A stretch of DNA of 64,000 nucleotides, from NCBI GenBank assembly GCA_943736015.1, contig OX031072.1, forward strand, positions 9,327,501 through 9,391,500, given 5' to 3'. The notes below the pieces were generated by a model. The model did no database searches. It was not told where the DNA came from and was given only the letters and a program-made list of their open reading frames with translations. Both the position numbers and the translations under genes were made by a program. How positions within the stretch are numbered: the stretch's first letter is position 1; each line of letters begins with the position of its first letter. The stretch comes from Tridacna crocea. Lineage: Eukaryota > Mollusca > Bivalvia > Cardiida > Cardiidae. Of this stretch, positions 1,553 through 63,970 are shown piece by piece.

Positions 1553-1781
1553 TTAACTCTTTACCAAACGACAATATTTTAGGCTTATCCAAATTGAAAA
1601 CATTTGCAGACGACAAAATAAAAGTGACTGAAAATTTGAAATTTGTTTTTTGAAGAGTAGAAAACATTGTGGGAAAAGGAGAAAATGCAGATTACCAGCA
1701 TTTTCTCCTATTCCCACTATGTTTTCTAAAGGCTTCTTTCTCAGGATCGTCAAAAGTAGGGATTGTGTGGTAATAGGTTAA
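1553..1781 (+). mobile_element. Family A MITE, copy A1
   Basis: Both TTAA sites are present (1553 and 1778). The left arm has ACTCTTTACCAAACGAC and the hairpin covers about 1661-1732. Confidence 0.9.
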
Positions 1782-1785
1782 CTTC

Positions 1786-2010
1786 TTAAGCAAACGAGAA
1801 AATGTTGGACTAGTTCAAAATGAAAGCATTTGCAGATGACAAAATAAATGTGAATCAAAAATTGAATTTTGATTTTGGACGGGAAGAAAACATTGTGGGT
1901 AAAGGAGAAAATGCTGGTTACCAGCGTTTTCTCCTTTTCCCTGGCAAATGTTTTCAAAAAGTTTCTTTCCCAGGGTCGTCAAAAGTAGGGATTGTGTGGT
2001 AATGGGTTAA
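1786..2010 (+). mobile_element. Family A MITE, copy A2, head-to-tail with A1
   Basis: TTAA at 1786 is followed by GCAAACGAG (the CCCTTTAC of the end is lost). TTAA closes at 2007. The hairpin is at about 1889-1955, with a CTGG insertion in its right arm. Confidence 0.85.
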
Positions 2011-2842
2011 CAAAATGAGTTTTTAGGGCATTCAAAGTTATGTATTGACTTGTTTAATTTAATTCATCACTCGGAGGCATTAAACCCCTTTTACCAAATC
2101 TATTCTGTTATATTTATTGGGATGCTGATTTATCAACAAATAGATATAAAAAGATATTCAGTGTTTCTAAGAATTGTTCTATGTTAGAGGAACGCCCCTC
2201 TTAAAGCGAAACTCCATGAAAAAAAAATGTTTTTCCCCATTTTTCCCCGACAATTTTGTAGGGAAACAGGGGAAAATTCGTTTGAAGTCAAGATTATTTC
2301 ACTTCAACCTCTTTCGTCTTTTTACTTATTTGTCAAACTGTCTGTGTATGGGACAGCTTTTCTGTGTACAGCATTTTATTATTATTATTATCACAATATT
2401 ATTTGAATCGTTATAGGACAAATAACTACATGTATAACAGACCTGTTAATTATGTGAAAGCTTTCAGATCTAGATGGATCAGAACAGGCTATAGATATTT
2501 TTGTCAGAGTATCAAGAAATATCAAAAAGAAATATCCCAAATTGTGGTTCTAAAATCATACAGCACGTTCTGAACAAATCTGGCCTTCATCCACATTATC
2601 CACTGGCACTAAATACTTCATACCGACAGGTTACAGCCTTGCGTATTTTTGCCAGGAAATCCAGATTTCAGACTGAATTCGTCAAAAATTACCAATTTTT
2701 TTTTTATATACAGATAGAATTATACATGTCTGTCTGTCTGTCTGTCTAGTATCTCACCAGCCATCCAACATAAATAACATTACAATTTTTCCCAGACAGC
2801 CATTGATTCCGTCCAATACAATTCGACCTACATCCAAACAAG
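2011..2842. other. Region upstream of homeobox exon 1
   Basis: AT-rich, with an ATT microsatellite (2380-2396) and a TGTC run (2728-2748). I see no TATA box or promoter that I can defend. Confidence 0.4.
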
Positions 2843-2948
2843 ATGACAAGCTCTTCCGGTTCAACTAGTACCCCACCACCCACTCTGTCGGATAACGACG
2901 ATGATGAGATAGACGTAGTGAATGGAACTGATCTCGATAAAACAAACG
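2843..2948 (+). CDS. Homeobox gene, coding exon 1
   Basis: Encodes residues 1-35 plus the first base of codon 36. It is Ser/Thr/Pro-rich and then acidic ([10 protein letters not shown]). It ends at a textbook donor, G|GTAAGT, at 2949. The 5' UTR or an upstream non-coding exon is not resolved; a TGTC microsatellite lies just upstream at about 2728-2748. Confidence 0.85.
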
Positions 2949-5900
2949 GTAAGTACAACAATGTATTCAGTTTAAACGTATTTATGAACAATTCTATGTG
3001 AAAAGGGGTTGACACTTTTCCCTTTTTTCTGTGGTCATTGTGCATTGTTATACAATCGTTTTTGAATTATCAACTTAAACAGACCTGCATTATCGTTGAT
3101 CTGTTTTCATCTGAACAGAATTCCCGGACGGTACCTTTTTGTGTGATAGGTCACATATGTGTGACTGGGATACGAGGTCTCTTGGCCAACCATGATTATA
3201 TGGTTTATTTATAATTAGAATTTTAGAATTTCATTCCCAATAATGTGTTAATATGACTCCTCATGTCTAGGAATGATATCACTTATTAGGCAAGAAATAG
3301 GACAGAATAGATGGTCTTGATTTGGCATCGAATTACCTGTTTCGCTTCGTCATTGTTTTCACCTTTTATCAAACAATACCGACCTGCAAGACCCTGTAGA
3401 GGAAAATCTGAAAACATTATGGGAAAAGGAGAAAATGCTGGTAAACAGCATTTTCTCCTTTTCCCACAATGTTTATATTCTGTAAACGATACCTTACGTC
3501 CTTTGTGGCGACACCTGATTTATTGTTGGCAGATACTTTCAAAAAGGTCAAGTTTAACATTTTGATATCTGGTAAAGGGTTTAAAACATATTAAAAGTGA
3601 AGATGTTCGCATATTTCTCTAGTTCGTGATTGTAAATGATAAAAGCAAATATCATCGTGATAAATATATCAAACGGCAACAATAAAAATGCACCCTTAGA
3701 GTATCAGAGCTCTAGATAGATGGAGTGATTTTGATTTCAAATTAGAAAGTATTATTTATTCTTCACTAACCCCAATGTTGTGGGTACTCATTAGAATCGT
3801 CTCAATAGTTGGTACTCTTTAGAATTGTCTAATTTAGACAATTCTAATGAATACACATAACATAGGGTTTCGAAGAGAGATAGTGGATTTAGAATACTTT
3901 AGAATACTGTCAACTACTCTTATCTGGAGGCTGGAGCTCCGTGTGTCTTTTTTTTTCTCTTTTACTATATGGATGAGTTTTAGTTTGGCAAGTTTAACCC
4001 TTCCGGCACGTAGAATAATTCATTGTGCTTTTGCAGATAGTGTAGATCAAGATCAGATCTGACATATGGTGTAGCGTTTTCCAATTTTTGATAACGCTAT
4101 GTCAGTTCTCTTCTCTCCCTCTCCCTCTCTCTCTCTCTCAAACCCAAATTTATATTTCATCAGTAATCTATTTTACACATTGAAACTCATAAGCACCAGG
4201 AATCTTAAGAGTTACATGAGGTGCTTAAACTGACAGTGTCGATCAAGATCGGACTGCACAGACAGTGTATTTCACTTTAATCTTTGCTTCAAACTGTATT
4301 ATATTTTGTGTCTTTTTACGAGAAAAAATAGAACAAGTCAATTATCATCCTTGTAACGACTGGATGTCACTTTACTTGGGCTCTATCAAAAAATTGTGGC
4401 AAAAGCAGAACATGTTCGTAACCAGCACTGAAAGAATAGAAAAAAAAATTAAAGGTAGAAAATGTTGCTCACCAGCATTTTTTCCTTTTCCTGTATTGTT
4501 CTCAAAAAGCTCTCCTCAAGGCCGTTAAACATGGGGTTGGTCGGTAAAAAGCTAGAGGTTTAAAGAAATGATTTTTTTATGTATATCAGATTACTTTGAT
4601 ATTTTCTTCAAGAAACGGTCTTCATCTACACGAAGTACGAATTAAACTTTTTACCCAACAACAAAATTTCAGACTAGTCCAGATCGACAACACTTGCAAA
4701 TGACAAAATAAGTGTGGCTCAAAAATTGAAACTTGTGTTTGGGATAGGTAGAAAAAAATCTTGTGGAAAAAGGAGAAAATGCTGGTAACCAGCATTTTCT
4801 CCTTTTCCCACAATGTTTTCAAAAGCTTTCTTTCTCAGAGTCTTTGACATTGTGTGAGAAAAAGTTAACAAAAAACGTTTGTAAGCTTGTAAAGACATTC
4901 ACATATAAAAATGTCTTGAATTGTAACGACAAAGATCTTTTATTGCCATTGCCGTTTTTATCGTTTTATTTTAGATTTCTTTCCTCAAGGTCGTTAAAAT
5001 GCTGGATTGTTTGAGTAAAGGTGTCTTACAGGAAATTTAGGACGATTTACCGTCAATAACTCGTTGTTACGCTACGGAAAATAAGACCTATTCCCATTTT
5101 TATTCTGTCTTTAATAATTACATATATTCATAGATAAATTTGAGACATATTTCTGAAAAGAGAATTTACGTAAATCTGCAAAAAGTTTGGACTCATGTCA
5201 GCTTGCTCGGAGAGTGCAGGCTGACTTTGACCGAAACTTTTTGCAGATGTATTAAACTCGGAGTTGCAATAAAGATGTTTTACCGGAAATTTAGACCGCT
5301 TTACCGCCATCGAATCATTTTGACGCTATGAAAAATAGCACCTGCCTGCTATCTGCCCATCTTTTAGTTGGCGGTAGTTTCATGTATTTATAGATCAATT
5401 CGAGACATTTTTGTGAAAATAGAATTTAATGCATCTGCAAAAAGTATCGACCTCGTCAGGCTGTGAAATCAGCGCAGGCTGAAAAGGGCCAAAAACTTCT
5501 ACTTGTAAATTTTCTTCTCGTCAAAGAGCCATGCTAAATCATGATGATTTAGACAGTTTTTTCTACAAAGTGATTTTATGGGTCCATAATTATGTGATGA
5601 CTTGCTTGGTAAGATGGATAACGGAGATGCATTAACTCATTACCAAACGACAACATTTCTGGTTTGTCCAAATTAAAAGCATTTGCAGACGACAAAGTAA
5701 AACTGACTGAAAATTTGAAATTTGTTTTGTGAAGCGTAGAAATCATAGACGACAATGTAAATGTGAATCAAAAAATGACATTTGTTTTGTGAGGGGTAGA
5801 AAACATTGTGGGAAAAGGAGAAAATGCTGGTTACCAGCATTTTCACCTTTTCGCACAATGTTTTCAAAAAGCTTCTTTCTCAGGGGCGTCAAAAGTAGGG

Positions 5901-8900
5901 ATTGTGTGGTAATGGAGTAGATTACTTTGGCGAGCGCGTGGCTCATTCATAATCATTTCTAATACTACTCCTTTTGCTACTACTACCACTAGTACTACTA
6001 CTACTTCCACAACCGCCTAAACAACATTTGAACAACGGTCTGGTAAAAGGAGGCTTAATTTATCTACCACAAGGATTGTACGACGCAAGTACAAGTAATC
6101 GTATAGTTATGATCGGAAATAGCAACTTTTCCAAAAACCGACTTAACTCATTACCAAACGACAAAATTTTAGACTGGTCCAAATCGAAAGCATTTGCAGA
6201 CGACAAAATAAAAGTGATTGAAAATTTGAAATTTGTTTTGTGAAGTGTAGAAATCATTGTGGAAAAAGGAGAAAATGCTGGTTACCAGCATTTTCTCCTT
6301 TTCCCACAATGTTTTCTAAAGGCTTCTTTCTCAGGGTCGTCAAAGGTAGGGATTGTGTGGTAATGGGTTAACAATTAGATAGATTGGTCCATGGATATAC
6401 AGAAAATTTGCCAGAAGCGAAAAAGTTTCCGCCAAGGTCAGCCTAAGTGGATTGCGACCTTGTTCGATACTTTTCGTAGGTGCCTTTAACCTAATACCAC
6501 ACAATCCCTACTTTTGACGACCCCCGAGAAAGAAGCATTTACAAAACATTGTGGAAAAAGACGAAAATGCTGGTAACCAGCATTTTCTCCCCTTCCCACA
6601 ATGTTTTCTACCCCTTACAAAACAAATGTCATTTTTGATTCACATTTACATTGTCGTCTGCAAATACTTTCGATTTGGACAAACCTAAAATATTGTCGTT
6701 TGGTAATGAGTTAATTAACCTCCTTCTCAGAGAACATTACTTATTTATGATTATATCTACCGCTTCTTCTTTTACTTCTACCAATACTAATATTTCTACT
6801 ACGATTACTATTTAACCCTTTACCAAACGACTAAATTTTAGACTGGTCCAAATTAAAAGCACGTGCAAACGACAAAATACATGTATCTCAAAAATTGAAA
6901 TTTATTTCCAGCAAGGTAGAAAACAGAAAATATTGTGGGAAAAGGAGAAAATGCTGGTAACCAGCATTTTCTCCTTTTCCAACAATGTTTTCAAAAGGCT
7001 TCTATCTCAGTGTCGTAAAAGCAAGGATTGTTTGGGAAAGGGTTAAACGACATTTATATTTCATTTCCAGATTCAGCTGAGATAGATGACGAGGACGACG
7101 ATGGGTTTTTATCACATCACAAGAAACAACGGAGAAACCGGACTACTTTCACCTCCGATCAGCTGAGGGAATTAGAGACAGTGTTTAGGCATACACACTA
7201 TCCCGACTGCACACTGCGAGAACAAATCGCCGAAAAAGTAGATCTCACGGAAGCTCGAGTACAGGTACTGAAATAAATTACATAGATTTTTACAAAGTCC
7301 GTATTCACAAGCCATTACCAAAAGCATTCTTACTTTAATCATAGATTTGAAAATAACACAACTTTTATTTGGCGAAATCATTTGGTTTAGCCAATTAGAA
7401 GGTGTTTTACTTTCAAATTTAGAAAATTCTTGAGAAAATGGATGCAAGGAGAGTAACGTAATGCTTCAAACCTGGGTTCCGAGAATGGCCACACATATAC
7501 TTGGCAGAGTTTCAGTTACATATCAATATACAAAATTCAGATCCGTCAATCTGATTAAACCCAGTAAACTTGATAATTAAGCCTATTTGAAATACTATAC
7601 CAAAGTTTTGATTCTTTGCCATTTAAATCTATTAGACAATTACCGATTTAAACGGATTAAGAATTCTTAAAACGCTTCAGTCGCGTGCACCACCTTTCCT
7701 TATGGATTTCCTTAATCCTTTATATACGTTCTCTCTTTTTTTAACGATCTTCAGATGCAAGATGTTTGAAAAACAGTGTGTGAATAGGAGATAATCATTA
7801 TCAGTACATTTACTGTTTTGTTGTTTACGTTAGTTCGACTGCAAAACTTTTGAAATTTTATTCATATATTGTTACCATTACCCAAGATACATGTATTTAC
7901 TTTAACTCCTTATCAAACGACAAAATTTTACAGTGGTCCAAATTGAAAGCACTTGCTGAGGACAAATGAAAGGTAATCCAAAAATTGATATTTGTTTCAA
8001 AGACGGTAGAAAACATTGTAGGAAAAGGAGAAAATGCTGGTTACCAGCATTTTCTCCTTTTCCTACAATGTTTTCAAAGGGTATCTATCTCAGGGTCGTA
8101 AAATCAGGGATTGTTTGGTAAAGGGTTAAACTAGGTCTAGTTGCTAGTTGTTAATTATCAAAAGGGGTGCCCATACAGCAAGTGCGCAGTAACCAACGAC
8201 ATGTTTACTGACTACAGAGCCATGGCAATACTTTGAGTTTCATTCGAATACAACCTAACTATAACTGTACATATATATTCTTATTGCAGGTATGGTTTCA
8301 AAACAGACGGGCAAAATGGCGGAAACACGAAAGAAACATAATAAGAATGTTTGACGTATTACGTCATCGAAGCGAAAATTTTCCCGTCATGCCGTCACCA
8401 TTAACCTTGAGCCCTGCTACCGTCCCAAGTCTGACAGCTTCCATGTATCCTTGGTTACCTAGGTTGCCGTTTCCATGGTCACACACATCGACGCCGTTGA
8501 CGCCTGTTCCCTGCATATTTCCACCATCATCTCCTATTTCGCCATTTCAAGGTAGTTTTTGTTGTAATTAATGTATGTAAGAAATCGACCAGTAACCAGA
8601 CCTTGTTAAGGCAACTTTCGACTCTTTACATGTATTTTGTGGAACAATTTCCAAAAACATATTGAATTCTCTCCTATTATTTTTCTTACAATGCTTGTCG
8701 TATATCTTTGGGTAGTTTTAATCATGGTTTTTGTTTCTGTATTTAAAATTTTGTTTTACATACATAAGTTTTAAGTATATATATATATTTTTTTTTTCGC
8801 TACGTTATTACTATTAATGCGGTAAAAAAAAAACCTTAAAAATAACTCATTGGTTTAATTTCTCCTCTAGCAGGTTCGCAAGAATAAGCGGTAAAATGCT

Positions 8901-9713: not shown

Positions 9714-9942
9714 TTAACCCTTGACCACATAATCTCGTCTTTGACGATCCTGAAGAAGAAAGCTTTTGAAAGCATTGTGGGAAAAAAGAAAATGCTGGTA
9801 ATCAACATTTTCTTATTTTTCCATAATATTTCTACTATTCCATTTCAAAGAATGCAAGAAGTCTCTTAAGCCTGACCTACACTGTCGTCTGCAAATGCTT
9901 TCAATTTGGAAAAATCTAAAATTTTGCTGTTTGGTAAAGAAT
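9714..9942 (-). mobile_element. Family A MITE, copy A11
   Basis: TTAA at 9714. The right end GGTAAAGAATGC has lost its TTAA. The hairpin is mismatched in several places. Confidence 0.75.
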
Positions 9943-10581: not shown

Positions 10582-10798
10582 TGGAGCTAATCAGTGCTTT
10601 AGATAGAGGGAGTGATTTTGATTTCAAAATTGAAAATATTTGTTATTCTACACTGAACCCTATGTTGTGGGTACTCATTAGAATCGTCTCATTGAGACGA
10701 TTCTAATGAGTGCCCACAACATGGGGTTTCAAAGAGAAATAATGGATATAGAATACAACCACTCCCTCTTTTCTGGGGCTCTGATTAATGAAGCTCCG
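10582..10798. repeat. I-family foldback, copy 2
   Basis: Best-preserved copy: ATTAGAATCGTCTCATTGAG is followed by its mirror around 10690. Outer arms are GGAGCTAATCAGTGC and GCTCTGATTAATGAAGCTCC. Confidence 0.8.
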
Positions 10799-12939: not shown

Positions 12940-13157
12940 TTAAATTCATTACCAAACGACAATATTTCAAATTTGTCCAAATCGAAAGCATTTGCAGACG
13001 ACAAAACAAAAGTGACTGAAAATTTGAAATTTATTTTGTGAATGGTAGAAAACATTGGTAACAATGGTAACCAGCATTTTCTCCTTGTTCCACAATGTTT
13101 TCTAAAGCCTTCTTTCCTAGGATCATCAAATGTAGGGATTGTGTGGTAATGGGTTAA
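12940..13157 (+). mobile_element. Family A MITE, copy A12, hairpin reduced
   Basis: TTAA at both ends. The left hairpin arm has collapsed to CATTGGTAACAATGGTAACC, while the right arm is intact. Confidence 0.85.
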
Positions 13158-14147: not shown

Positions 14148-15329
14148 CAAACAAGAGGGCCATTGGCCCTGGAGCGCTTACCTGAGATTTAGCTTTATAT
14201 CAAAGCTCTACGCCTTCAAGTTTAAGATAAGAAAATTCTTAAAGTTTCCCTTCTTTGTTCATGTGTTCTAACTTATGACCCCCGGGGCTAGGCCAGTTTT
14301 GACCCCAAGGAAATCATATGAACAAATGTGGTAGAGATCCACTAGGAGATGCTACATACCAAATATCAAAGCTCTATGCCTTTTAGTTTTTGAGAAGAAG
14401 AACATTAAAGTTTTCATTCTTTGTTCCTATGTTTGAACTTGTAACCCCCGGGGCGGGACCAGTTTTGACGCCAGGGGTATTACGTGAACAAACTTAGTAG
14501 AGGTCAACTAGGAGACGCTACTTACCAAATATCAAAGCTCTATGACTTCTAATTTCAGAGGGAAAGATTTCTTAAAATGTTCCTTCTTTTTTGCTATGCT
14601 TATACTTGTGTCCCGCGGAGCGGCGCCAGTTATGACCTCAGAGGCATTATTTGAACAAAGTTGGTAGAGGTCCACTAGGAAATGCCACATACCAAATATC
14701 AAAGCTCTACGCCATCTAGTTTTAGACGAGAAGATTTTTAAATTTTTCCTTCTTTGTTCCTATGCTCAAACTTGTGACCCCCGGGGCGGGGCCAGTTTTG
14801 ACCCAAGGGGCATCAGTTGAAGAAACTTGGTAGAGTTTCACTAGGAAATGCCACATACCAAATATCGAAGCTCAACGCCATCTAGTTTCAAAAAAGAAGA
14901 GTGTTAAAGCTTTCCTTCTTTGTTCCTATGCTCAAACTTGTGACCCTCCCGGGTGGGGCCAGCTTTGACCCCAGGGGCATCATTTGAATCAACTAAATAG
15001 AGGTCCACTAGGAGATGCCACATACCAAATATCAAAGCTCTACGCCTTCTAGTTTCAGAGAAGAAGATTTTCAAAGATCTTGTATTTTATTTCCTTTTTG
15101 TTGCCATGGCAACCACAGTTATGGGTGTAATTCAATTATTTGAATAAGTTTGGTAGAGCCTCAACGAAGAAGCATCTCTGCCAAGTTTCATCAAGATTAA
15201 ACCAGTAGTTAAGGAGAAGAAGATGTTTAAAGAAATTGTTGACGGACGATGGACGATGAACGACGGACGCCGGACATAGGGCAATCACAATAGCTCACCT
15301 TTAGCGCTTCCTGCTAAGGTGAGCTAAAA
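14148..15329 (+). mobile_element. J element with 166-bp internal tandem array
   Basis: Head ACAAGAGGGCCATTGGCCCT is a hairpin, then GCGCTTACCTGAG. Six starts of ATCAAAGCTCTACGCC-like sequence at 14201, 14367, 14533, 14700, 14866 and 15033 give a period of 166-167 bp. The tail has a GTTGCCATGGCAACC palindrome, repeated GACGGACG, and a terminal hairpin region ending AAGGTGAGCTAAAAA. No protein coding capacity. The architecture recalls oyster pearl-type elements and non-autonomous Helitron-like elements; the class is not certain. Confidence 0.75.
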
Positions 15330-16792: not shown

Positions 16793-17021
16793 TTATCCCA
16801 TTACCACACACTCCCTACCTTTGACTACCCTGAGAAAGAAGCCTTTAGAAAACATTGTGGGAAAAGGAGAAAATGCTGGTAACCAGCATTTTCTCCTTTT
16901 CCCATAATGTTTTCTACCCTTCACAAAACAAATTTCAAATTATCAGTCACTTTTATTTAGTCGTCTGCAAATGCTTCCAATTTCGGCAAGCCTTAAATAT
17001 TGTCGTTTGGTAATGAGTGAA
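16793..17021 (-). mobile_element. Family A MITE, copy A13
   Basis: Near-perfect hairpin centred at about 16880. Both TTAA sites are mutated (TTAT and GTGA). Confidence 0.88.
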
Positions 17022-17152: not shown

Positions 17153-17288
17153 CAGTAAAGCACTTACCGCAAATTGCCGACTTTGAACGACCCTGGGAAA
17201 GAAGCCTTTTCAAAACATTGTGGGAAAAAGAGAAAATGCTGATAACCAGTATTTTCTACTTATCCAACAATGTTGTCTACCTATAAAA
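17153..17288 (-). mobile_element. Family A MITE, copy A14, truncated by a J head
   Basis: The left end and hairpin are present. At about 17287 the sequence passes directly into AAACAAGAGGACCATGATGG. Confidence 0.7.
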
Positions 17289-18611: not shown

Positions 18612-18839
18612 TTAACCCTTTCCCAAACAATCCCTGGTTTTTACGGATCTAGAATAGTAGCCTTTTGAAAACATTGTGGGAAAAGAAGAAAATGCTGGTA
18701 TCCAGCATTCTCTGCTTTTCCCACAATGTTTTCTACCCTATCATAGACAGAAATCATCTTTTCAGCAATAGTTTAAATTTCGTCTTCTAATGCTTTCAAT
18801 TTGGTCTAGTCCAAAAGTTTGTCGTTTGGAAAGGGTTAA
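18612..18839 (-). mobile_element. Family A MITE, copy A15
   Basis: Complete, TTAA at both ends, CCCTTTCCCAAAC variant end. Nested in the K element. Confidence 0.92.
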
Positions 18840-42109: not shown

Positions 42110-42850
42110 AACAATCGACTCAACCTTGAGGTAGACTCGTCCTTTGACATGGAGAATATTGACCAGTGGCAAACTGTTTCGACTCTTTGATACATTATAC
42201 AAAGAAAGTAATCATACAATTATAGATCTATAACATTCATTTTATCAAACAACTTAATGAACCATGAAGTAGACTGGTCCTTTGACATGAAGAATATCCA
42301 CCAGTTGCAAAAAGTTTCGACTCAGGTCAGCCTGCTTGGACTGCACAGGCTGATCTGAGTCGATACGTTTTGCAGCTACGTTAAGCCCCCATTTTCAATG
42401 AAAATGGCTCATGTGTACATGCAGGTAGACTGGTCCTTTGACATGAAGAATGTCGACCAGTGGCAAAAAGTTTCGACTCGGGTCAGCCTGCGTGGACTGC
42501 CCGGGCTGACCTGGGTCGATACTTTCTGCAGATACGTTAAACCACCATTTTCAATGAAAACGGCTCATGTGTACATGCAGGTAAACTGGTCCTTTGACAT
42601 GAAGAATATCGACCAGTGGCAAAAAGTTTCGACCCAGTTCAGCCTTCGTAGACTGCGCAGGTTGATCTGGGTTGATACATTTTTGAAGACGCGTAAAGCC
42701 CCTTTTTCAATAAAAAATGTGTACATGTAGATTGTTCCGTTGACATCTAGAATATTGACCAATGACAAAAGGTTTAGACTCAGGTCTTCCTGCACAGACT
42801 ACGAAGGCCGATCTAATTTAATGCTTTTTGCAGATTCATTAAGCTCCCCT
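42110..42850 (+). repeat. E-family tandem array, five units
   Basis: AGACTGGTCCTTTGACATGA and variants start at 42133, 42271, 42427, 42583 and 42729 (spacing 138, 156, 156, 146). Each unit has CAGTGGCAAAAAGTTTCGAC and a CAGCCTGCGTGGACTGC inverted core. The apparent ORF at 42398-42730 is this array. Confidence 0.82.
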
Positions 42851-43908: not shown

Positions 43909-44097
43909 AGAGCTCCAGATAAGAGGGAGTGATGTATTTCTAAATCCATTATTTCTCTTTGAAACCCTATGTTGTGGGTACTCATTAGAAACGTCTCATC
44001 GAGACGATTCTAATGAGTACCCACAACATAGGTTTCAGTGCAGAAAAATTAATATTTCCAATTTTGAAATCAAAATCACTCCCTCTAAATGGAGCTC
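43909..44097. repeat. I-family foldback, copy 3
   Basis: GAGCTCCAGATAAGAGGGAG and CTCCCTCTAAATGGAGCTC arms. Centre ATTAGAAACGTCTCATCGAG then its mirror. Confidence 0.8.
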
Positions 44098-44109: not shown

Positions 44110-44310
44110 CAGCCATAAAATTTATTTTGTCTACCAACCATGAGGTAAACTGGTCCTTGGAAATACCGAAAATTGAGCACTAGCAAAAAGGTTCGGCCCT
44201 AGTCAGCCTGCGCGGACTGCGCAGCCTGACCTAGGTCGATAATTTTTGCAAGATGCATTGACCCCCTCACACCCCTCCTTGCCTTTTCACAGACCATGGC
44301 TTACATACTA
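44110..44310 (+). repeat. E-family element
   Basis: ACCATGAGGTAAACTGGTCC, CTAGCAAAAAGGTTCGGCCC, core CAGCCTGCGCGGACTGCGCA, GACCTAGGTCGATAATTTTT. Confidence 0.65.
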
Positions 44311-44689: not shown

Positions 44690-45661
44690 ATTATAGTTTT
44701 TTCTAGGATTTGACCTGGTGACCTAGTTTTTGACAATACATGGCCCCTTTTCAGATTCAAATGAGAATTCATCAAGACAAATATTCTGACCAACTTAAAC
44801 TGAAAATGTGGCTCATGAGCGTACACAAGGTTTTTCTAAGATTTGATCTGGTGACCTAGTTTTTGTTTCGACATGGCCCATTTTCAGACTCTTCCGAAAT
44901 ATCATCAAGACAAACATTCTGAGCAATTTTCAAGTGAACTGGACAGAAATTGTGGCTTCTGGAGCGTACACAAAGTTTTTTTTTCTAAGATTTGACCTGG
45001 TGAACTAGCTTTTGACTTAACATGGCCCATTTTTCAAACCCGTCGGAGATATTTTCATGACAAACATTCTGAGCAACTTTCAAGAATATTGGACTGAAAA
45101 TGTAGCCTCTAAAGCGTACAAAGATTTTCTTAGATTTTACCTGGTTACCTAGTTTTGACACGACATTACACATTTTCGAACTGCTCCGCGATATTATTAA
45201 GAGAAACATTTTATTCAACTTTCAGGAGTATTGGACTGAAAATGTGGCCTACCTCCACAAGGTTTACTAAGATTCTAAGATTCGACCTGATGACATAGTT
45301 TTGACCCGACCTGACCAATTTCAAGCTCGTCCGAGATATCATCAAGACAAACATTCTGACAAACTTTAAGATGTATTGGACTGTAAATGTGGCCTCTAGG
45401 GCTTGCAAAAGTTTTTTTTTTTTTTTTTTTTTCTAAAATTTGACCTTTTGACCTAGTTTCTGACCCTACATGACCCATTTTTTGACAATGTTCGAGATAT
45501 CATCGGGGCAAACATTCTGACCAAGTTTCATGAGTATCCGACGGAAAATGTGATTTCTAGAGGGTACACAAGGTAAAAGGTTTACGACGCACGACTGACG
45601 CCGGACACACCACGATCACCATAGCTCAACATGAGCAGTTCGTGTTCAGGTGAGCTACAAA
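44690..45661 (+). mobile_element. J-type element (3' part) with a tandem array of about 130-155 bp
   Basis: About six units of ATTTGACCTGGTGACCTAGT, CATCAAGACAAACATTCTGA and GGACTGAAAATGTGGCC. The tail has ACGACGCACGACTGACGCCG, GAGCAGTTCGTGTTC and AGGTGAGCTA. The AACAAGAG head is not seen. Confidence 0.65.
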
Positions 45662-46123: not shown

Positions 46124-46319
46124 GGGTCCGTATTCAACAACCATTCTTAAGAACGTTCTTTGTCTTATTATCCAGAATTTTCTACATTAGTAACACAACA
46201 TCTGATTGGCTAAACCATATGGTTTAGCCATTCAGAAGTTAAGTTACTTACAAGTATAGAAAACCTAGGAGAATAAGACTAAGAATATTCTCAAGAATGG
46301 TTGGTGAATACGGGCCCTG
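46124..46319. repeat. G-family foldback
   Basis: Ends GGGTCCGTATTCAACAACCA and complement; flanked by CAG left and CTG right. The inner arms are worn on one side. Confidence 0.82.
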
Positions 46320-47164: not shown

Positions 47165-47545
47165 ATGTGTCCAGTCAGATAGCGCCGTCGGTAGTGCGCA
47201 GGCCTTAACTCATTACCAAACGACAAAATTCTAGGTTTGTCCAAATCGAAAGCATTTGTAGACGACAAAATAAAAGTGATTGAAAATTTTAAATTTGTTT
47301 TGTTAAGGGTAGAAAACATTATGGAAAAAGGAGAAAATGCTGGTTACCAGCATTTTCTCCTTTTCCCACGATGTTTTCTAAAGACTTCTTTCTTAGGATC
47401 GTCAAAACTAGCGATTGTGTGGTAATTGGTGAAATAAATAGGAGATGACCAATGGTTCGAAATCCTAGCTTGGCCATTTTTTCCCGAGGATTAGTGATAG
47501 TCATTGGGTGTTTCTTTCTCACCTTCTGTATGATTTTACAGCCTT
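47165..47545 (+). repeat. tRNA-derived SINE-like sequence split by MITE A24
   Basis: An A-box-like TAGCGCCGTCGGTAGTGCGC lies at 47180-47199. After the MITE come the B-box-like GGTTCGAAATCC (47454) and a tail (ATTAGTGATAGTCATTGGG) homologous to 55708-55770. No intact tRNA cloverleaf. Confidence 0.55.
47205..47433 (+). mobile_element. Family A MITE, copy A24, nested in the SINE
   Basis: TTAA at 47205; the right end is mutated to TGAA. The hairpin is nearly perfect. Confidence 0.9.
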
Positions 47546-48851: not shown

Positions 48852-48933
48852 ATCGCCGGTTTACATTCAAAAACCTCGTAACTACAGCTTATTTGAAGCT
48901 GTAGTTACGAGGTTTTTTAAGTAAAAAGACGAT
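48852..48933. repeat. F-family palindrome
   Basis: CGGTTTACATTCAAAAACCT pairs with AGGTTTTTTAAGTAAAAAG; loop ATTTG. Confidence 0.82.
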
Positions 48934-49494: not shown

Positions 49495-49726
49495 TTAACC
49501 TTTTTCCACACAATAATGACTTTTGACGACCCTTGGAAAGTAGCATTTTGAAAAGTGAAAACATTGTGTGAAAAGGAGAAAATGCTGGTAACCAGCATTT
49601 TCTCCTTTTCCCACAATGTTTTCTTCCCTATCAATATACAATTGCACCATTTGAGACACATTGAGTCCTGTGCAAATGCTTTCAATTTGTACAGGGCTAA
49701 AATTTTGTCGTCTGGTAAAGGGTTAA
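49495..49726 (-). mobile_element. Family A MITE, copy A25
   Basis: Complete, TTAA at both ends. The left arm has AAAGTGAAAACATTGTGTG, a small duplication. Confidence 0.9.
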
Positions 49727-50480: not shown

Positions 50481-50702
50481 TTAACCCTTTACCCCATAAG
50501 GCATTTCTATGGTATGTCTAATTGACCCTAAATAACAGCAAGAGTGAAGCCGTTGGGTAAATGAGACCTTTGATAGTATTAAAAACATTGTGACAAAAGG
50601 TGAAATTGCTCCTCACGAGCAATTTCACCTTTTGCCACATTGTTTTCAAAAGGCTCCTATAAGCAATGCATAGAAACGAGTACCTATGGAGTAAAGGGTT
50701 AA
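50481..50702 (+). mobile_element. Family B MITE, copy B1
   Basis: TTAA at both ends. Left CCCTTTACCCCATAAGGCAT, right ACCTATGGAGTAAAGGG. Hairpin TGACAAAAGGTGAAATTGCT and complement. Confidence 0.92.
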
Positions 50703-52084: not shown

Positions 52085-52166
52085 ATCGTCGGTTTACTTC
52101 CGAAACCTCGTAACTACAGATTGTTTCAAGCTGTAGTTACGAGGTTTTTTTAAGTAAACCGGCGAT
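52085..52166. repeat. F-family palindrome
   Basis: ATCGTCGGTTTACTTCCGAA ... TTTAAGTAAACCGGCGAT; arms of about 35 bp. Confidence 0.85.
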
Positions 52167-52224: not shown

Positions 52225-52331
52225 TTTATAGACGACAAAATTTTGCACTTGTTCACATTGGAAGAATTTCCGGACATATTCAATGTGGACAGGGTCGTTT
52301 AAAGTTGGGACTACGTGGTAAAGGGTTTTAA
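52225..52331 (+). mobile_element. Family A deletion derivative lacking the hairpin
   Basis: GACGACAAAATTTTGCACTT is followed almost directly by AGGGTCGTTTAAAGTTGGGA and GGTAAAGGGTT; the hairpin core is gone. Confidence 0.6.
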
Positions 52332-52513
52332 CTCTTTACCACACAGTGCCGACTTTTAACGACCCTAAGAAGGAAAGCCTTTGGTAATCAGCATTTTCTC
52401 CTCTTCCCCCAATGTTTTCTACCCTTTCCAAATAAAATTGCAATTTATTTTATTGTCTGAAAATGCTTTCAATTTTGATTGATCCAAAATTTTGTCGTTT
52501 GGAAAAGAGATAA
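52328..52513 (-). mobile_element. Family A MITE with one hairpin arm deleted
   Basis: TTAA at 52328, then AACGACCCTAAGAAGGAAAG. The left arm is missing; the right arm and end are intact to GGAAAAGAGATAA. Confidence 0.8.
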
Positions 52514-53663: not shown

Positions 53664-54385
53664 GGTTGACAAACTTAGCCTTGCATCGCATAAGCCTTTG
53701 CCAAACAACCCTTTTTTTAACCCGTAGAATGAAAGCTGTTGAAAACATTGTGGGAAAATGAGAAAATGCTGGTAACCAGCATTTTCTCCTTTTCCCACAA
53801 TGTTTTCTACTCTTCTAGAGTCAATTTTCGAGTTTTTGGTTGACAAACTTAGCCTTGCGTAATCCGTTACCAAACAATCCCTCGTTTTAATGACCCTGAA
53901 ATAAAAGCCTGTTGAAAACATTGTGGAAAATGGGGACAATGCTGGTAACCAGCATTTTCTCCTTTTCCCACAATGTTTTCTACTCTTCTATAGTCAAGTT
54001 TACAGTTTTTGGTTGACAAACATAGACTTGCATAATCCTTTACCAAACAATCCCTTGTTTTTACGATTCTGAGATAGAAGCCTGTTGAAAACATTGTGGG
54101 AAAAGGAGAAAATGCTGGCAAAGAAGCATTTTCTCCTTTCCCCACAATGTTTTCTACTCTTCTACAGTCAAGTTTCAAGTTTTTGGTTGACAAACATAGT
54201 CTTGCATAATCCTTTACCTAACAATCCATCGTTTTTATGACCCTGAAATAAAAGCCAGTTGAAAATGTGGTAAAAGGAGAATGCTGGTGGCCAGCATTTC
54301 CTCCATTTCCTACAATGTTTTCTACCCAGCAGGAAACAAATTTCAAAGTTTGAGTTACATTTATTTTGTCGTCTGCAAATGCTTT
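53664..54385 (-). repeat. MITE-derived satellite: four tandem units of 173-174 bp
   Basis: GGTTGACAAACTTAGCCTTG begins units at 53664, 53838, 54011 and 54185. Each unit holds CCTTTACCAAACAATCCC, the whole family A hairpin, and CTACTCTTCTA.AGTCAA. The last unit runs on into a normal A right arm (GTCGTCTGCAAATGC). Confidence 0.88.
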
Positions 54386-54613: not shown

Positions 54614-54835
54614 TTAACCCTTTACCACACAACAGAATTTTAGACCTATCAAAAACAAACGCATTTGTGGGCAATAATTTCATAGTGGCTCTAATGATGC
54701 AATTTTTCTTTGATAAAGAAGAAAACTATTTGTTAGAAAAGGAGAAAATGCTGGTAACCAGCATTTTCTCCTTTTCCTTCACAGTTTTCAAAGGCCTTTT
54801 CCTCAGGGGCGTTATAAGTCGTGGTAAAAGGTTAA
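54614..54835 (+). mobile_element. Family A MITE, copy A27
   Basis: TTAA at both ends, ACACAACAGAATTTTAGACC left variant shared with the copy at 60816. Confidence 0.88.
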
Positions 54836-55427: not shown

Positions 55428-55657
55428 TTAACAATTCCCCACACAATGTTTACTTTAGACTACCCCTGGAAAAAAGCTTTTTGAAAACATTGTGGCAAAA
55501 GGAGAAAATGCTGGTAGCAAGCATTTTCTCCTTTTCCTACAATGTTTTCTACCCTTTCCAAAAACAAATTTCAATTTTTGAGCCACATTTATATTGTCAA
55601 CTGCAAATGCTTTCAATTTGGACATGTCTCAAATTTTGTTTTCTGGTAAAGAGTTAA
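55428..55657 (-). mobile_element. Family A MITE, copy A28
   Basis: TTAA at both ends; left end ACAATTCCCCACACAATG is mutated, hairpin good. Confidence 0.88.
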
Positions 55658-56328: not shown

Positions 56329-56521
56329 TTAATCCTGTACCAAACAATCCTGCTTTGGGGAAGGAAGTCTTTAGAAAAACTTGTGAGAAAAGGAGAAAAT
56401 GCTGGTCACAAGCATTTTCTCCTTTTCCCACAATGTTTTCTACACTATTAATCAGAAATTTGTCATCTTTGAATGCTTGAATTGGGTAAGTGTAAAATTC
56501 TGTAATTTGGTAAACAGTTAA
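56329..56521 (-). mobile_element. Family A MITE, copy A29, short right arm
   Basis: TTAA at both ends. About 35 bp of the right flank is deleted. Confidence 0.85.
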
Positions 56522-56706: not shown

Positions 56707-56942
56707 TTAACCCTTTACCACACAATCCCTACTTTTAAAGGCCCTGAGAAAGAAAGCTCTTGTAAACATTGTGGGAAAAGGAGAAAATGTTGGAAGTCAG
56801 TATTTCCTCCTTTTCCCACCCATGTTTTCTACCCTTTCCAAATCAATTTTAATATCTGTTTTTAATTTTATATTGTCTTCTGCAAATGCTGTCAATTTGG
56901 ATGAATCTAAAAATTTTTTTTTGTCATTTGGTAAAGAGTTAA
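56707..56942 (-). mobile_element. Family A MITE, copy A30
   Basis: TTAA at both ends, CCCTTTACCACACAATCCC left end, hairpin centre AATGTTGGAAGTCAGTATT. Confidence 0.9.
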
Positions 56943-57030: not shown

Positions 57031-57080
57031 CAGCAGTAGCATCAATTGCATGTTTCTGTTTCATCATTGCATTACATTGC

Positions 57081-57370: not shown

Positions 57371-57675
57371 CTCTTTGGTTCAGTGGTTATGGTATTGGTC
57401 TTTTAACCCTTTACTCCATAGATACTCATTTCTACGCATTGCTTGTTGGAGCCTTTGGAAAACATTGTGACAAAAAGGTGAAATTGCTCATGACAAGCAA
57501 TTTCACCTTTTGTCACAATGTTTTCTATGCTATCAAAAAGTGTCATATACCCATAAGAAACGGCTTCATCCTTGCTGTTATTTAGGGTCAATTAGAGATA
57601 CCATAGAAATGCCTTATTGGGTAAAGGGTTAACCTCGAAAAATGAGGATATTTGCCCTTCATGAGTTCAAATCCT
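57371..57675 (+). repeat. tRNA-like sequence split by MITE B2
   Basis: TTGGTTCAGTGGTTATGGTA (57375-57394) resembles a tRNA 5' half with an A box. After the MITE come CCTCGAAAAATGAGG and the B-box-like GAGTTCAAATCCTGCTAGA. Removing the MITE and one TTAA gives a continuous tRNA-like order; it is a SINE head or tRNA pseudogene. Confidence 0.5.
57403..57632 (-). mobile_element. Family B MITE, copy B2
   Basis: TTAA at both ends; CCCTTTACTCCATAGATACT left, TTATTGGGTAAAGGG right. Nested in a tRNA-like sequence. Confidence 0.92.
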
Positions 57676-58325: not shown

Positions 58326-58553
58326 TTAACCTCTTACCCCAAAAGGCATTTCTGTGGTATCTCTAATTGACCCTAAATAACAGCAAGGATGAAGCCATTT
58401 CTAATGTGTAATGACACCTTTTGATAGCACAGAAAACATTGTGACAAAAGGTGAAATTGCTCATCACGAGCAGTTTCACCTTTTGCCACAATGTTTTCCA
58501 AAGGCTCAGACAAGCAATGCTTAGAAATGAGTATCTATGGAGTAAAGGGTTAA
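58326..58553 (+). mobile_element. Family B MITE, copy B3
   Basis: TTAA at both ends; CCTCTTACCCCAAAAGGCAT left, TCTATGGAGTAAAGGG right. Confidence 0.92.
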
Positions 58554-58868: not shown

Positions 58869-59094
58869 CTAACTCATTACCAAACGACAAAATGTTAGAC
58901 TTGTCCAAATCGAAAGCATTTGAAGACGACAAAATAAATGGAAATGAAAAACTGTAAATTGATTTGGAAAGGGTAGAAAAAATTGTGGAAAAAGTAGAAA
59001 ATCCTGGTTACTAGCATTTTCTCCTTTTCCCACAATGTTTTCTAAAGGCTTCTTTCCCAGGGTCGTCAAAAGTAGGGATTGTGTGGTAAAGAGA
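58869..59094 (+). mobile_element. Family A MITE, copy A31
   Basis: Left TTAA mutated to CTAA, right end GGTAAAGAGAAG. It is followed directly by A32 in the same direction. Confidence 0.85.
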
Positions 59095-59307
59095 AGCAAG
59101 AAAATGTAGTCCATATTGAAAGCATTTGCACAAAACAAATGAAAAGTGTCTCGATTCATAAAATTTGTTTTGGAATGGCGAGAAAACCTTGTGGGATAAG
59201 GAGAAAATGGTGGTTACCAGCATTTTCTCATTTTTGCACAAGCTAGGTTTTCAAAGCTTTCCTTCCCAGGGTCGTGAAAACCAGGGCTTGTTTGGTAAAG
59301 AGTTTTA
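59095..59307 (+). mobile_element. Family A MITE, copy A32, head-to-tail with A31
   Basis: GTAGTCCATATTGAAAGCAT left remnant, hairpin AAATGGTGGTTACCAGCATT, right end TTGTTTGGTAAAGAGTTTTAA. Confidence 0.78.
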
Positions 59308-60047: not shown

Positions 60048-60354
60048 ATTATGAAAAGACCTGTTATATACAAAATACATTACTAAGTGGCTGCCTACTG
60101 ATAGGCCTTTGTAATTAAGTATAAAGGCAAATTTTGGATAGAGATATGTCACTATTGTGTGATAGGTAACATTTTGACAAATCTAATTGGAAATGTAACT
60201 GACAGTAATCAGTATGCAGTTTACTCCATCATGACATGTTTCAGAAAGTCTTTGACACAGTGTAGATATAGACTTGTTCCTATTGAGTCAGATTTTATGC
60301 TCCTGAGATACATGCATTTTGGGCCGGAAATGTTGCAGCTGATTAACCCTTTAA

Positions 60355-60583
60355 TTAACCCATTACCACACAATCCCTACTTTTGACACCCCTGAGAAAG
60401 AAGCCTTTTGAAAACACTGTGGGAAAAGGAGAAAATGCTGGTTACCAGCATTTTCTCCTTTTCCCACAGTGTTTTCTACCCTTGCCAGATCAAATTTCGA
60501 TGTTTCAGTCACCTTTATGTTGTCGTCTGCAAATGCTTCCAATTCGAACCAGTCTAAAATTTTGTCGTGTGGTAAAGAGTTAA
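60355..60583 (-). mobile_element. Family A MITE, copy A33
   Basis: TTAA at both ends. A perfect hairpin has the compensated variant ACACTGTGGG and CCCACAGTGT. Confidence 0.93.
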
Positions 60584-60591
60584 CCCTTTAA

Positions 60592-60819
60592 TTAACCCAT
60601 TACCACACAATCCCTACTTTTGACACCCCTGAGAAAGAAGCCTTTTGAAAACACTGTGGGAAAAGGAGAAAATGCTGGTTACCAGCATTTTCTCCTTTTC
60701 CCACAGTGTTTTCAACACTTACCAGAACAAATTTCTATTTTTGAGTCACCTTTATTTTGTCATCTGCAAATGCTCTGAATTTGGACCAGTCTATATTTTC
60801 TCGTGTGGTAATGGTTTAA
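60592..60819 (-). mobile_element. Family A MITE, copy A34, near-identical left half to A33
   Basis: Same CCTTTAATTAACCCATTACC lead and same hairpin variant as A33; the right arm differs. Confidence 0.92.
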
Positions 60820-61035
60820 CACACAGCAAAATTTTAGACCTATCCAAATTGGAGGCATTTGCAGACAACATTTCAAAGTGGCTCAAATGGTGCAATTTTG
60901 TTTTAATAGGGTAGAAAACATTGTGGGAAAAGGAGAAAATGCTGGTTACCAGCATTTTCTCCATTCCCCACAATCTTATCAAAAGGCTTCTTCCTCAGGG
61001 TTGTTAAAAGTCGTCATTGTGTGGTAAAGGGTTAA
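60816..61035 (+). mobile_element. Family A MITE, copy A35, sharing a TTAA with A34
   Basis: TTAACACACAGCAAAATTTT left (terminal CCCTTTAC lost), TTAA at 61032. Three copies therefore lie back to back. Confidence 0.9.
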
Positions 61036-61316
61036 ACAAGAATATTTCATACAGGGGAATGCTTACTATTGCGTAGTTCACATGTTCTGTATGCACTGAA
61101 GGCTTGCCAGGCCTTTTCTATAGATCTAGAGGAATAATTGCCCATCACTGTACAGTTCTTCTTGCCCTAATGACAGTCTCTCAACTTGTATTTCTCTTCG
61201 TAATAAATCTAACTGATTACCTCTTCAGAAAAATTTGCCGCTGATGAATTAAAAAAAAAAAACCCTTGTAAAAAATGGACAATTTTCTTTGTATCAAGTT
61301 TCACCATTTCATAACA

Positions 61317-61400
61317 GGCAAAAACATTGTGACAAAAGGAATTACAGCGCGCAACAAGCAATTTCATCTTTTACCAAAGTGTTTTCAAAATGTTTTGTGG
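61317..61400. mobile_element. Family B hairpin remnant
   Basis: AAAACATTGTGACAAAAGGA ... AAGCAATTTCATCTTTTACC. Confidence 0.5.
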
Positions 61401-61502: not shown

Positions 61503-61811
61503 TTAAATGTGCATGTTGATGGCCCCTGGGTTATCAAGTCCGTATTTCCGACTCATCTCGTGCCCATCAGAAATGGGTTTTTTATCACTGCCGTCATTTG
61601 GTCCCCATTCATCTGTTGGAGTTGTAATTGAATGAAGTCTCTCCATAAAGTCTCCTTCAGCCATGAAAAGCTTGTAGATAAACATAAGTGGGATAGGAAC
61701 CAGCACAATACAAGTTAGGACCCAGCCAACAGCCTGTGCAAATTCTGGGAATGGCTCTCCGTCTGTGATCTCTGGTGCTTTGTATTTTATCATTCTGTAT
61801 AAAAACAGAGC
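61503..61811 (-). CDS. SLC6 transporter, last coding exon
   Basis: The acceptor on the minus strand reads TTTATACTTCAG|GCT. It encodes 102 residues and a stop. It contains TM12 and the intracellular C-terminus with the SLC6 TP.DEWGP motif. Confidence 0.92.
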   Translation of the reverse strand, partial: ALFLYRMIKYKAPEITDGEPFPEFAQAVGWVLTCIVLVPIPLMFIYKLFMAEGDFMERLHSITTPTDEWGPNDGSDKKPISDGHEMSRKYGLDNPGAINMHI

Positions 61812-63062
61812 CTGAAGTATAAAGATAGAATATACATAAACATGAATATTGTGCTATTGCGAAGAAAGAACTGCATCAAAAATATATTATACAGGAACAT
61901 AAAAATACTGTAATGAAAGCACTGTGACTCAAGCACCTTAACTTTCTTTTTAACCCTTTACCAAATGACAAATTTTAGACTAGTCTAAATTGGAAGCATT
62001 TGCAGACAACAAAATAAATGTAGCTCAAATGATGTTTTTTTTTTATCTTTGATAGGGTAGAAAAAATTGTGGTTACCAGCATTTTCTCCTTTTCCCACAA
62101 TGTTTTCAAAAGGTTTCTTCCACAGGAGTGTTAAAAGTCTGGATTGGGTGGTAAAGGGTTAAATCACTGAAATACGGGCAACTTATTTTGAAGCCCATTT
62201 ACCTCTCAACCCTGAAGAAGACGACTCCTGAAAAACACATTGGGAAAGGAGAATTTTCTCCTTAGGCGTTACTGTTTTCTACCCTTTCAAAGACAAATTT
62301 CAGCATATGAGCAGCATTTAGTAATTGTCATCTGCATCACAAAGTAAATAACATGCACAAGGAAAGTTACTACAACATAATTATATACATGTAATATTCC
62401 TTTCATTATATACCTATAACTTATAACGGCAACATTTTGCAGTTATTGACATTTTATTCGAGAACAGTAAACAAAATGAGACAATTGATAGTGTTGAAAA
62501 TAGTAATTCTGTTTTAATGTACAGTGGATTAATATAACAGCATAACATTTTGACTAATCAAATCGCGAATGAACAGATGCTTAGTCTAAGTGCTTGACAT
62601 GTTATTATACCATATTTGGAATTGTATTTCACAGTGTGTGTGTATACAGATATTTTTTCTGTTGTGTGATTTATTTTATTCAATTGTACTTGAGCTGCAA
62701 AAATTTACTGGTATATAATTTAACCCTTTACTCCATAGATACTCATTTGTATGCATTACTTGTGGGAGCCTTTGGAAAACATTGTGGCAAAAGGTGAAAT
62801 TGCTCGTGACGAGCAATTTCACCTTTTGCCACAATGTTTTCTACACTACCAAAAGGTGTCATATACACATAAGAAACGGCTTCATCCTTGGTGTTATTTA
62901 GGGTCAATTAGAGATACCATAGAAATGCTTTATGGGGTAAAGGGTTAAAACTTACCCCTATCAACAGTGGAGATATAATAGACCAACACACAATCCAGAA
63001 ATATTTGGGCGCAGGTGGATGACCCAGCATGTAGGACATATCCCTTACAAATCTACCAACCC
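61503..63062 (-). CDS. SLC6 family Na+/Cl- dependent transporter, 3' part (last two exons; 5' part outside the window)
   Basis: Minus-strand exons are 62956-63062 and 61503-61811. The penultimate exon encodes VGRFVRDMSYMLGHPPAP, then KYFWIVCWSIISPLLIG. It corresponds to the SLC6 extracellular RDV.MLG segment and the start of TM11, and its phase-0 donor is GGG|GTAAGT. The last exon begins ALFLYRMIKYKAPEITDGE and continues FPEFAQAVGWVLTCIVLVPI (TM12). It then has the conserved cytoplasmic tail RLHSITTPTDEWGPND and ends in AINMHI. This family imports amino acids, glycine, taurine or neurotransmitters using Na+ and Cl- gradients at the plasma membrane. The substrate-site TM segments lie outside the window, so the substrate cannot be named; the tail looks most like glycine/neutral amino acid types. 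Two MITEs (61950-62162 and 62720-62948) sit in the intron. Confidence 0.92.
61950..62162 (+). mobile_element. Family A MITE, copy A36, in the last SLC6 intron
   Basis: TTAA at both ends. The left hairpin arm is lost (AAAAATTGTGGTTACCAGC). Confidence 0.85.
62198..62335 (-). mobile_element. Family A MITE, decayed
   Basis: Short hairpin GGAGAATTTTCTCCTT, then ACCCTTTCAAAGACAAATTT. Confidence 0.5.
62720..62948 (-). mobile_element. Family B MITE, copy B4, touching an SLC6 splice donor
   Basis: TTAA at both ends. A perfect hairpin, TTGCTCGTGACGAGCAA, is central. The end lies 7 bp from the exon boundary at 62956. Confidence 0.94.
62956..63062 (-). CDS. SLC6 transporter, penultimate coding exon
   Basis: It runs on the minus strand from acceptor TATTTTTCAG to donor GTAAGT. 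It begins in phase 1 (two bases complete a codon) and ends in phase 0. A family B MITE begins 7 bp beyond the exon end, leaving only the donor consensus intact between them. Confidence 0.88.
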
Positions 63063-63134
63063 CTGAAAAATACACAAAAATGGCATGTCACCAGAAAATT
63101 ACCATCTAAAAATGATCTGTAGCAGATCCAGTAT

Positions 63135-63570
63135 TAAAACGTTGTGACAAAAAGAGAAATTTAAATCATTGAGAAAAATGAGTCTTATGAAAACTCTGTT
63201 AAAAAAGGAGAAATTTTACTGTAAAGCAAAAAAATACTGAATTTTAGACTTGTCAATACTGTAAGCATTAAAATTTTTGTTGTGACAAAAAGAAAAATTT
63301 AAATCTTTGAGAAAAATGAGTCTTATGAAAACTCTGTTAAAAAAAGAGAAATTTTACTGTAAAGCAGAAAAAAACACAAAATTTTAGAATTGTCAATACT
63401 GTAAGCATTAAAATTTTTGTTGTGACAAAAAGGGAAATTTAAATCTTTGAGAAAAATGAGTTTTATGAAAACTCTGTTAAAAAAGGAGAAATTTTACTGT
63501 AAAGCAAAAAAACACAAAATTTCAGACTTGTCAATACTGTAAGCATTAAAATTTTGCAGAACAAAATACA
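63135..63570 (+). repeat. MITE-derived tandem array, three units of about 140 bp
   Basis: GTTGTGACAAAAAGAGAAAT-like starts near 63140, 63279 and 63419. Each unit has GAGAAAAATGAGTCTTATGA, GGAGAAATTTTACTGTAAAG and AAATTTTAGACTTGTCAATA. The last phrase is the family A left arm. Confidence 0.82.
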
Positions 63571-63710
63571 ATGTGCCTCATTTGATGTCGTAAGTCTCTG
63601 AGCCATAAGAAAAATTGTTGGAAATGGAGAAAATGCTGGTACCCAGTATTTTCTCCCCTTCCTACACTGTTTTTAAAACACGTCTTCTTCAGGGTCATTT
63701 ACCTTTAGGC
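63541..63710 (+). mobile_element. Family A MITE, decayed, continuing the array
   Basis: GCATTAAAATTTTGCAGAAC, hairpin AAATGCTGGTACCCAGTATT, right TTCAGGGTCATTTACC. Confidence 0.6.
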
Positions 63711-63741
63711 TACCAAGCATGACTCTTGAATCTAAACTGAT

Positions 63742-63970
63742 TTAACCCTTTACCCCATAAGGCATTTCTATGGTATCTCTAATTGACCCTAAATAACAGC
63801 AAGAATGAAGCCATTTCTTATGTGTATATGATACCTTTTGATAGCATAGAAAACATTGTGACTAAAGGTGAAATTGCTCGTCACGAGCAATTTCACCTTT
63901 TGCCACAATATTTTCCAAAAGCTCCTACAAGTAATGCTTAGAAATGAGTATCTATGAAGTAAAGGGTTAA
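63742..63970 (+). mobile_element. Family B MITE, copy B5
   Basis: TTAA at both ends; CCCTTTACCCCATAAGGCAT left; hairpin centre TTGCTCGTCACGAGCAA is perfect. Confidence 0.94.

Follow-up and report, generated by a model that had tools for sequence, protein, structure and literature searches.

The window analysed here, a 64-kb stretch of the Tridacna crocea genome (assembly GCA_943736015.1, contig OX031072.1, positions 9,327,501 to 9,391,500; G+C content 36.5%), is crowded with copies of a miniature inverted-repeat transposable element (MITE) that carries a long palindrome and occurs as two families, A and B. With profiles derived from seed copies (16 of A, 5 of B), 71 non-overlapping loci were identified at E ≤ 1e-3, which together cover 12,779 bp or 20% of the window; the A profile was the best match at 65 loci and the B profile at six, one of them a 92-bp fragment (61301–61392). 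Ends like TTAACCCTTTACC, with at most two mismatches on both strands, also gave 71 matches, against a mean of 2.19 and a maximum of 7 in 100 dinucleotide shuffles of the window, and the A profile, the only one used in the profile control, had no match at E ≤ 1 in ten such shuffles. Both ends were retained at 29 of the 71 loci, and the 23 end pairs with measured lengths (equivalent to 21 copies) spanned 193–241 bp, mostly within 220–235 bp. Viral contigs contained neither the 31-base stretch of A core nor the two arm sequences (21 bases of A, 22 of B) that were searched; an 18-base pattern occurred in four of these contigs, in which the A profile had one weak match (E 0.011, 9.7 bits), taken as chance.

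The family A consensus is 229 bp long and its ends begin TTAACCCTTTACC. Its terminal repeats are imperfect and about 20 bp long, reading CCCTTTACC and, in the consensus, CTCTTTACC (the base concerned being split about half and half), and the left and right bodies between them are unlike each other. The core, at consensus positions 56–122, is a 67-bp palindrome whose two 33-bp arms, fully complementary in the consensus, surround a single base, A or T. Family B comprises five full copies (50481, 57403, 58326, 62720 and 63742), also with a 229-bp consensus and with ends TTAACCCTTTACyCCATA (CCCTTTAC on both sides); its outer parts differ from those of A and its core is homologous. The B profile was also the best fit to the decayed core fragment at 61301. 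The core is spanned by 59 of the 71 loci, the other 12 being left out of all core counts, and all 33 pairs are intact in four of the 59. Folding was far stronger than in shuffles, with z −9.4 as DNA for A copy 60355 and z −13.4 as RNA for B copy 62720. The short and uniform length (229 bp), high copy number (71 loci in 64 kb) and terminal inverted repeats of about 20 bp are those of a MITE; 229 bp is too short for a transposase, and the long open frames that run over copies look incidental.

A preliminary description of this DNA had counted more than 50 copies, with full copies of 220–235 bp, and both figures agree with the census. It had also treated the elements as one hairpin-bearing family with near-perfect arms, extending over 1553–63970. 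The arms are fully complementary in the consensus, and four core-bearing loci still have every pair; two families with a common core take the place of the single one; and the outer sides of A differ, inverted repetition there being limited to the terminal 20 bp or so. The proposed span does run from the first full copy (1553–1781) to the last (63742–63970), which belongs to B, and leaves a cut-off A copy at 1–48 outside. The copies and arrays are listed below; the list is partial, the census of 71 including further weak and partial loci. Tandem arrays were found with Tandem Repeats Finder (TRF).

1–48 (+): A, truncated by the start of the window to its right end (profile census)
1553–1781 (−): A, full copy, TTAA on both sides
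1789–2010 (−): A, one end worn (profile census)
3358–3583 (+): A, both ends worn (profile census)
4643–4868 (−): A, T-centred core
5632–5915 (−): A, internally rearranged, with overlapping profile stretches 5632–5746 and 5746–5915
6143–6371 (−): A, full copy, TTAA on both sides; weak empty relative at 42206–42344
6486–6714 (+): A, full copy, TTAA on both sides
6812–7046 (−): A, full copy, T-centred core
7902–8129 (−): A, full copy, 33/33 core pairs intact, one matched private change at pair 12
9714–9940 (+): A, worn (profile census)
12945–13157 (−): A, core damaged
16793–17021 (+): A, both TTAA mutated
17163–17282 (+): A, partial copy with core
18612–18839 (+): A, full copy
22677–22904 (+): A, T-centred core, matched change at pair 9
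23008–23213 (−): A, partial copy (profile census)
28289–28509 (−): A, T-centred core
33650–33854 (−): decayed A/B-related copy (profile census)
34272–34500 (−): A, full copy inside another repeat; empty relatives at 42.2–42.7 kb and 44.1–44.2 kb
35223–35434 (+): A, core damaged
35461–35684 (+): A, full copy, 3' arm of core shortened
36368–36595 (+): A, full copy
38330–38512 (+): A, partial copy, core shortened as in 35461
47205–47433 (−): A, one TTAA mutated
49495–49726 (+): A, full copy
50481–50702 (−): B, full copy
52328–52513 (+): A, most of the 5' core arm missing
53688–54325 (+): satellite-like tandem array of truncated A copies, unit about 173 bp (truncated A plus about 20 bp) (TRF; units at 53691, 53860, 54033 and 54207 by profile)
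54614–54835 (−): A, full copy, T-centred core
55428–55657 (+): A, full copy
56329–56521 (+): A, body shortened
56707–56942 (+): A, full copy
57403–57632 (+): B, full copy, core pair 13 is A-T
58326–58553 (−): B, full copy
58870–59091 (−): A copy (profile census)
59108–59304 (−): A, partial copy (profile census)
60355–60583 (+): A, full copy, T-centred core, 33/33 pairs intact, matched change at pair 8
60410–60476 (+): 67-bp palindromic core of copy 60355
60592–60819 (+): tandem duplicate of copy 60355, identical core (TRF period 237, duplication 60343–60811)
60815–61035 (−): A copy (profile census)
61301–61392 (−): decayed core fragment, B profile best
61950–62162 (−): A, full copy, most of the 3' core arm missing
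62720–62948 (+): B, full copy, 33/33 core pairs intact
62775–62841 (+): 67-bp palindromic core of B copy 62720
63742–63970 (−): B, full copy

TTAA target and terminal motif

TTAA was present at the low end of 26, at the high end of 24 and at both ends of 23 of the 29 copies with two ends. The copy at 34272–34500 sits inside another repeat, and four related stretches that are 72–75% identical (42218–42390, 42418–42546, 42574–42683 and 44136–44249) are empty. All four alignments were ungapped through the junction, with small gaps a few bases beyond it, and each stretch had one four-base site (AACT, CACT, CACT and TAGT) in place of the two TTAA of the filled locus, as TTAA duplication predicts; these stretches are paralogues in which the four bases have diverged, rather than empty alleles. 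Copy 6143 has a weaker spanning match (69%) at 42206–42344, which also fits a single site. These alignments and flanks indicate that the family inserts at TTAA and that the target is duplicated. A target duplication longer than TTAA was considered and set aside: outer direct repeats of one base were found in 6 of 29 copies (7.8 expected), of two bases in none (2.1), of three bases in two (0.56; copies 7902 and 35461), of four to seven bases in none, and of eight bases in one, tandem copy 60355, whose unit is duplicated.

There were further candidate spanning matches. One, at 25046–25184, would be a fifth for the 34272 empty site (67% identical); a query with 60592 matched 60590–60471 and 1765–1891, both over other A copies.

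The piggyBac superfamily is defined, in the accessible part of one study, by a TTAA target, terminal repeats of 12–19 bp and a CC[C/T]T terminal motif (PMC2872659), and repeats and motif of this description are found at both A and B ends. TTAA insertion and CC[C/T]T ends are likewise features of T. ni piggyBac and piggyBat. The Kolobok superfamily also targets TTAA and probably has a different end motif. The label of piggyBac-type MITE would therefore fit A and B by their ends and target, the two features on which it is based. The preliminary description had proposed TTAA-bounded MITEs with piggyBac-type ends, which is upheld by the TTAA on both sides of 23 of 29 copies, the terminal motif and the empty relatives of 34272, with no transposase found in the window; it had also named empty sites with an unduplicated TTAA as evidence that would tell against it, and at 34272, checked against paralogues only, the single four-base site fits duplication.

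Conservation and matched changes in the core

Among 24 near-complete A copies, mean identity to the consensus was 0.949 and 0.939 in the two arms, 0.925 and 0.887 in the ends, and 0.833 and 0.820 in the flanks, and the consensus sequences of A and B agree at 57 of 67 core positions, compared with 34 of 54 aligned positions in the left part and 55 of 104 in the right part (ends included). The core is the best-conserved region of the element, in keeping with the earlier remark that a conserved hairpin asks for an explanation. One such explanation, that the core is an older, separate palindromic element captured by both families, would make the likeness one of descent and the A/B differences those of two captured versions. 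Near-palindromes with arms of at least 20 bp do occur elsewhere in the window, nine of the 34 detected lying outside A/B loci (25 lie inside) and several of these belonging to repeated families. Capture would account neither for a core that outconserves the flanks within A nor for the switching of its centre base described below, and we regard it as unlikely.

The differences between A and B in the 5' arm fall at pairs 14, 21, 26 and 31, and all four are matched in the 3' arm, an outcome for which a simple null of random placement, drawn up after looking at the data, gives a probability of about 1.5e-6. The 3' arm has an additional difference at pair 13, a pair that reads A-T in 57403, G-C in 62720 and G-T in the other three full B copies. 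Covariation was scored over 26 distinct ungapped cores scoring at least 85, from 27 loci (the 60592 core is that of 60355; B copy 57403 was dropped for a one-base insertion), and reached 0.103 against 0.048 in shuffles, none of 500 attaining the observed value, and at most 0.038 when the partner was slid by one to three columns. Seven pairs were changed on both sides compared with 3.1 in shuffles (2 of 500 reach this), pairing cells made up 93.1% compared with 89.9%, and there were 18 further pair types compared with 14.9 (20 of 500). Of the 18 cells changed on both sides, 15 belong to B rows at the four pairs that separate A from B, so that the underlying events would number about four between the families plus one each at pairs 8, 9 and 12.

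Matched arms of this kind would be expected if the hairpin itself were under selection, working either as DNA, where a cruciform could promote amplification or transposition, or as RNA, in the form of a hairpin transcript, such that broken cores do not amplify. The conservation of the arms relative to the flanks and the seven pairs changed on both sides are consistent with such structural selection, as is pair 13 of B, where G-C, G-T and A-T trace a path through a wobble pair. The four fixed A/B changes do not follow such a path: all are complement swaps (G-C to C-G, A-T to T-A), with no transition among them, and so did not pass through G-U. In the window there was no Rfam match at gathering scores, which speaks against an RNA role of a known kind, and a tRNA scan found nothing. 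Structural selection also does not predict that an unpaired centre would switch between A and T only, and as the principal explanation it seems to us rather doubtful, if less so than capture.

A palindrome may also be conserved as the binding site of a dimeric protein, for example the cysteine-rich domains of a piggyBac-type transposase, with the two half-sites shifting together as specificity drifts. According to the part of the structural literature available, two cysteine-rich domains of the transposase bind a palindrome near the ends in both piggyBac and piggyBat, 19 bp long in piggyBac (PMC11707139), and the conservation of the core would suit such a role. The A/B palindrome is central, not subterminal, its 33-bp arms far exceed such half-sites, and the changed positions are scattered over pairs 14–31; a dimeric-protein site is accordingly a very improbable explanation.

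The centre base and proposed strand switching

The single base between the arms behaves differently from the rest of the core. It is A in 22, T in 8, G in one and C in one of the 32 A copies placed on a tree of flank sequences, and A in 18 and T in 8, with no G or C, of the 26 A-type cores in which GGT and ACC are intact and the centre is present; both counts of eight include the tandem pair 60355 and 60592. Around seven switches between A and T were counted on the flank tree, whereas each of the other 66 core columns had at most two complement changes and two rows. Because reverse-complementing the core changes nothing but its centre base, A/T switching marks inversion. The decayed fragment at 61301 also has a T centre.

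A T-centred sublineage was considered as the source of this pattern and is not supported: mean flank identity among 29 copies was 0.654 for T-T, 0.688 for A-A and 0.672 for A-T comparisons, and the flank column that best marks a T centre was equalled in 59 of 300 permutations. An association of T centres with matched changes, seen by eye, was dropped, as the cases were too few and partly of doubtful alignment (54614).

These observations lead us to consider it probable that A and B are non-autonomous MITEs with TTAA as their insertion target, that a piggyBac-superfamily transposase most likely moves them in trans, and that their core has been inverted or re-copied by strand switching. This transposase would be supplied by a gene at another place in the host; mollusc genomes have yielded piggyBac elements, as reported in the accessible part of one survey (PMC10813416). 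Replication strand switching at the palindrome, by a jump to the opposite strand or by fold-back copying, could invert the core: a template switch that copied the palindrome from the opposite strand would yield an inverted core with a flipped centre, and unequal switch points would re-copy one arm from the other and so create matched changes. Source elements would in this way keep their arms matched, while inserted copies would wear base by base. Structural selection acting on source elements would have the same effect on the arms, and the two processes may act together. Template switching that creates and repairs hairpin arms is described, in the portion of the work available, for RNA genes, where arms are copied from the complementary or nascent strand (PMC8794818); here it is proposed for a transposon core with a switching centre.

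Several observations weigh against this interpretation. When the window was searched by tblastn with a 224-residue piggyBac core, the best match had an E of 1.9, and a Pfam search of 10 of the 45 stop-to-stop frames of at least 90 residues identified no transposase. The centre was singled out after looking, the tree of the 32 A copies is poorly resolved, with 19 of 29 inner branches open, so that the seven switches are an estimate, and in B the centre is G in all five full copies, with no switch seen. The complement swaps at the four A/B pairs are unexplained and are not predicted by strand switching. Private changes within A also give a marginal signal. In 37 A copies the 5' arms had 82 changes and the 3' arms 92, with 13 pairs changed on both sides and six of these matched, against 3.1 expected from pairing the arms of different copies (p 0.077). 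Other score cuts gave 4 against 1.2 in the 27 best copies (p 0.030) and 10 against 6.8 in 47 copies (p 0.14); these sets leave out 60592 as a duplicate, and retaining it in a set of 38 gave 7 against 3.1 (p 0.030), some of the matched cases resting on doubtful alignments. Inserted copies would thus decay for the most part unrepaired, any excess of matched changes being slight.

A stronger form of the proposal, which we put forward only tentatively, is that the core is an actively flipping palindrome, extruded during replication or transposition, inverted or re-copied by strand switching, and hence a natural recorder of inversion. Long perfect palindromes are generally unstable. If the proposal were true, a 67-bp near-perfect palindrome would have been kept alive in an animal genome, with its centre base as a read-out of inversion, and a high-copy MITE with matched arms and drifting flanks would provide many replicate natural experiments on inversion and arm re-copying by template switching. 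The same system may help to explain why some TTAA MITEs, in corals as well as here, retain a conserved core that their transposase is not known to require.

Relatives of the element and other repeats in the window

A and B belong to a known kind of element and make up a new family whose core is unusual. Among the open-access records listed for TTAA or piggyBac MITEs of bivalves and molluscs, for hairpin or palindromic cores, for CMITE-like elements and for the end sequence, none described this family, which Repbase may already name. The closest precedent is the coral CMITEs. The Acropora CMITE families resemble A and B, as far as the accessible text of their description goes, in their TTAA target, CCCTTT-type ends, tandem arrays of copies and an internal region that differs less between families than do the terminal repeats, and their link to piggyBac was inferred from the ends and one autonomous element; they are about 100 bp long, compared with 229 bp for A, and that text makes no mention of matched arm changes or centre switching (PMC2872659). 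A and B thus have the better-conserved internal region of CMITEs and not a homologous one: the published 60-bp CMITE core did not significantly match either A (best E 0.75) or the window as a whole (best E 0.36), and it is not a strong palindrome, folding at −11.0 kcal/mol compared with −53.2 kcal/mol for the A core (RNA parameters).

The window contains palindromes of other kinds. A separate palindromic repeat family, not A/B, with arms of up to 36 bp (AACCCTATGTTGTGGGTACTCATTAGAA...), is found at 10656–10728, 43963–44035 and 3812–3854, the last assigned by eye. Near-perfect arms of at least 60 bp occur at 32072–32192 and at 41810–41931, the search having an arm limit of 60 bp that makes these lengths lower bounds, and the latter palindrome has TCTGATTGGCTAAACC in common with that at 46197–46240. 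A near-palindrome at 24924–25002 has 38-bp arms, and a pair at 48866–48920 and 52103–52147 has AAACCTCGTAACTACAG in common.

Further tandem arrays detected by TRF have units of about 145–166 bp (14197–15076, 20993–21333, 25490–26791, 42269–42793 and 44799–45420). The unit of a 138-bp tandem array of three copies at 63141–63555 (TRF) includes a core-like stretch, possibly a third relative of the cores of A and B. Two open frames, in keeping with animal DNA, match the ends of Pfam families below the curated cut-off, namely 8212–8568, a partial exon matching the end of the homeodomain, and 61503–61850, an exon matching the end of the sodium:neurotransmitter symporter family.

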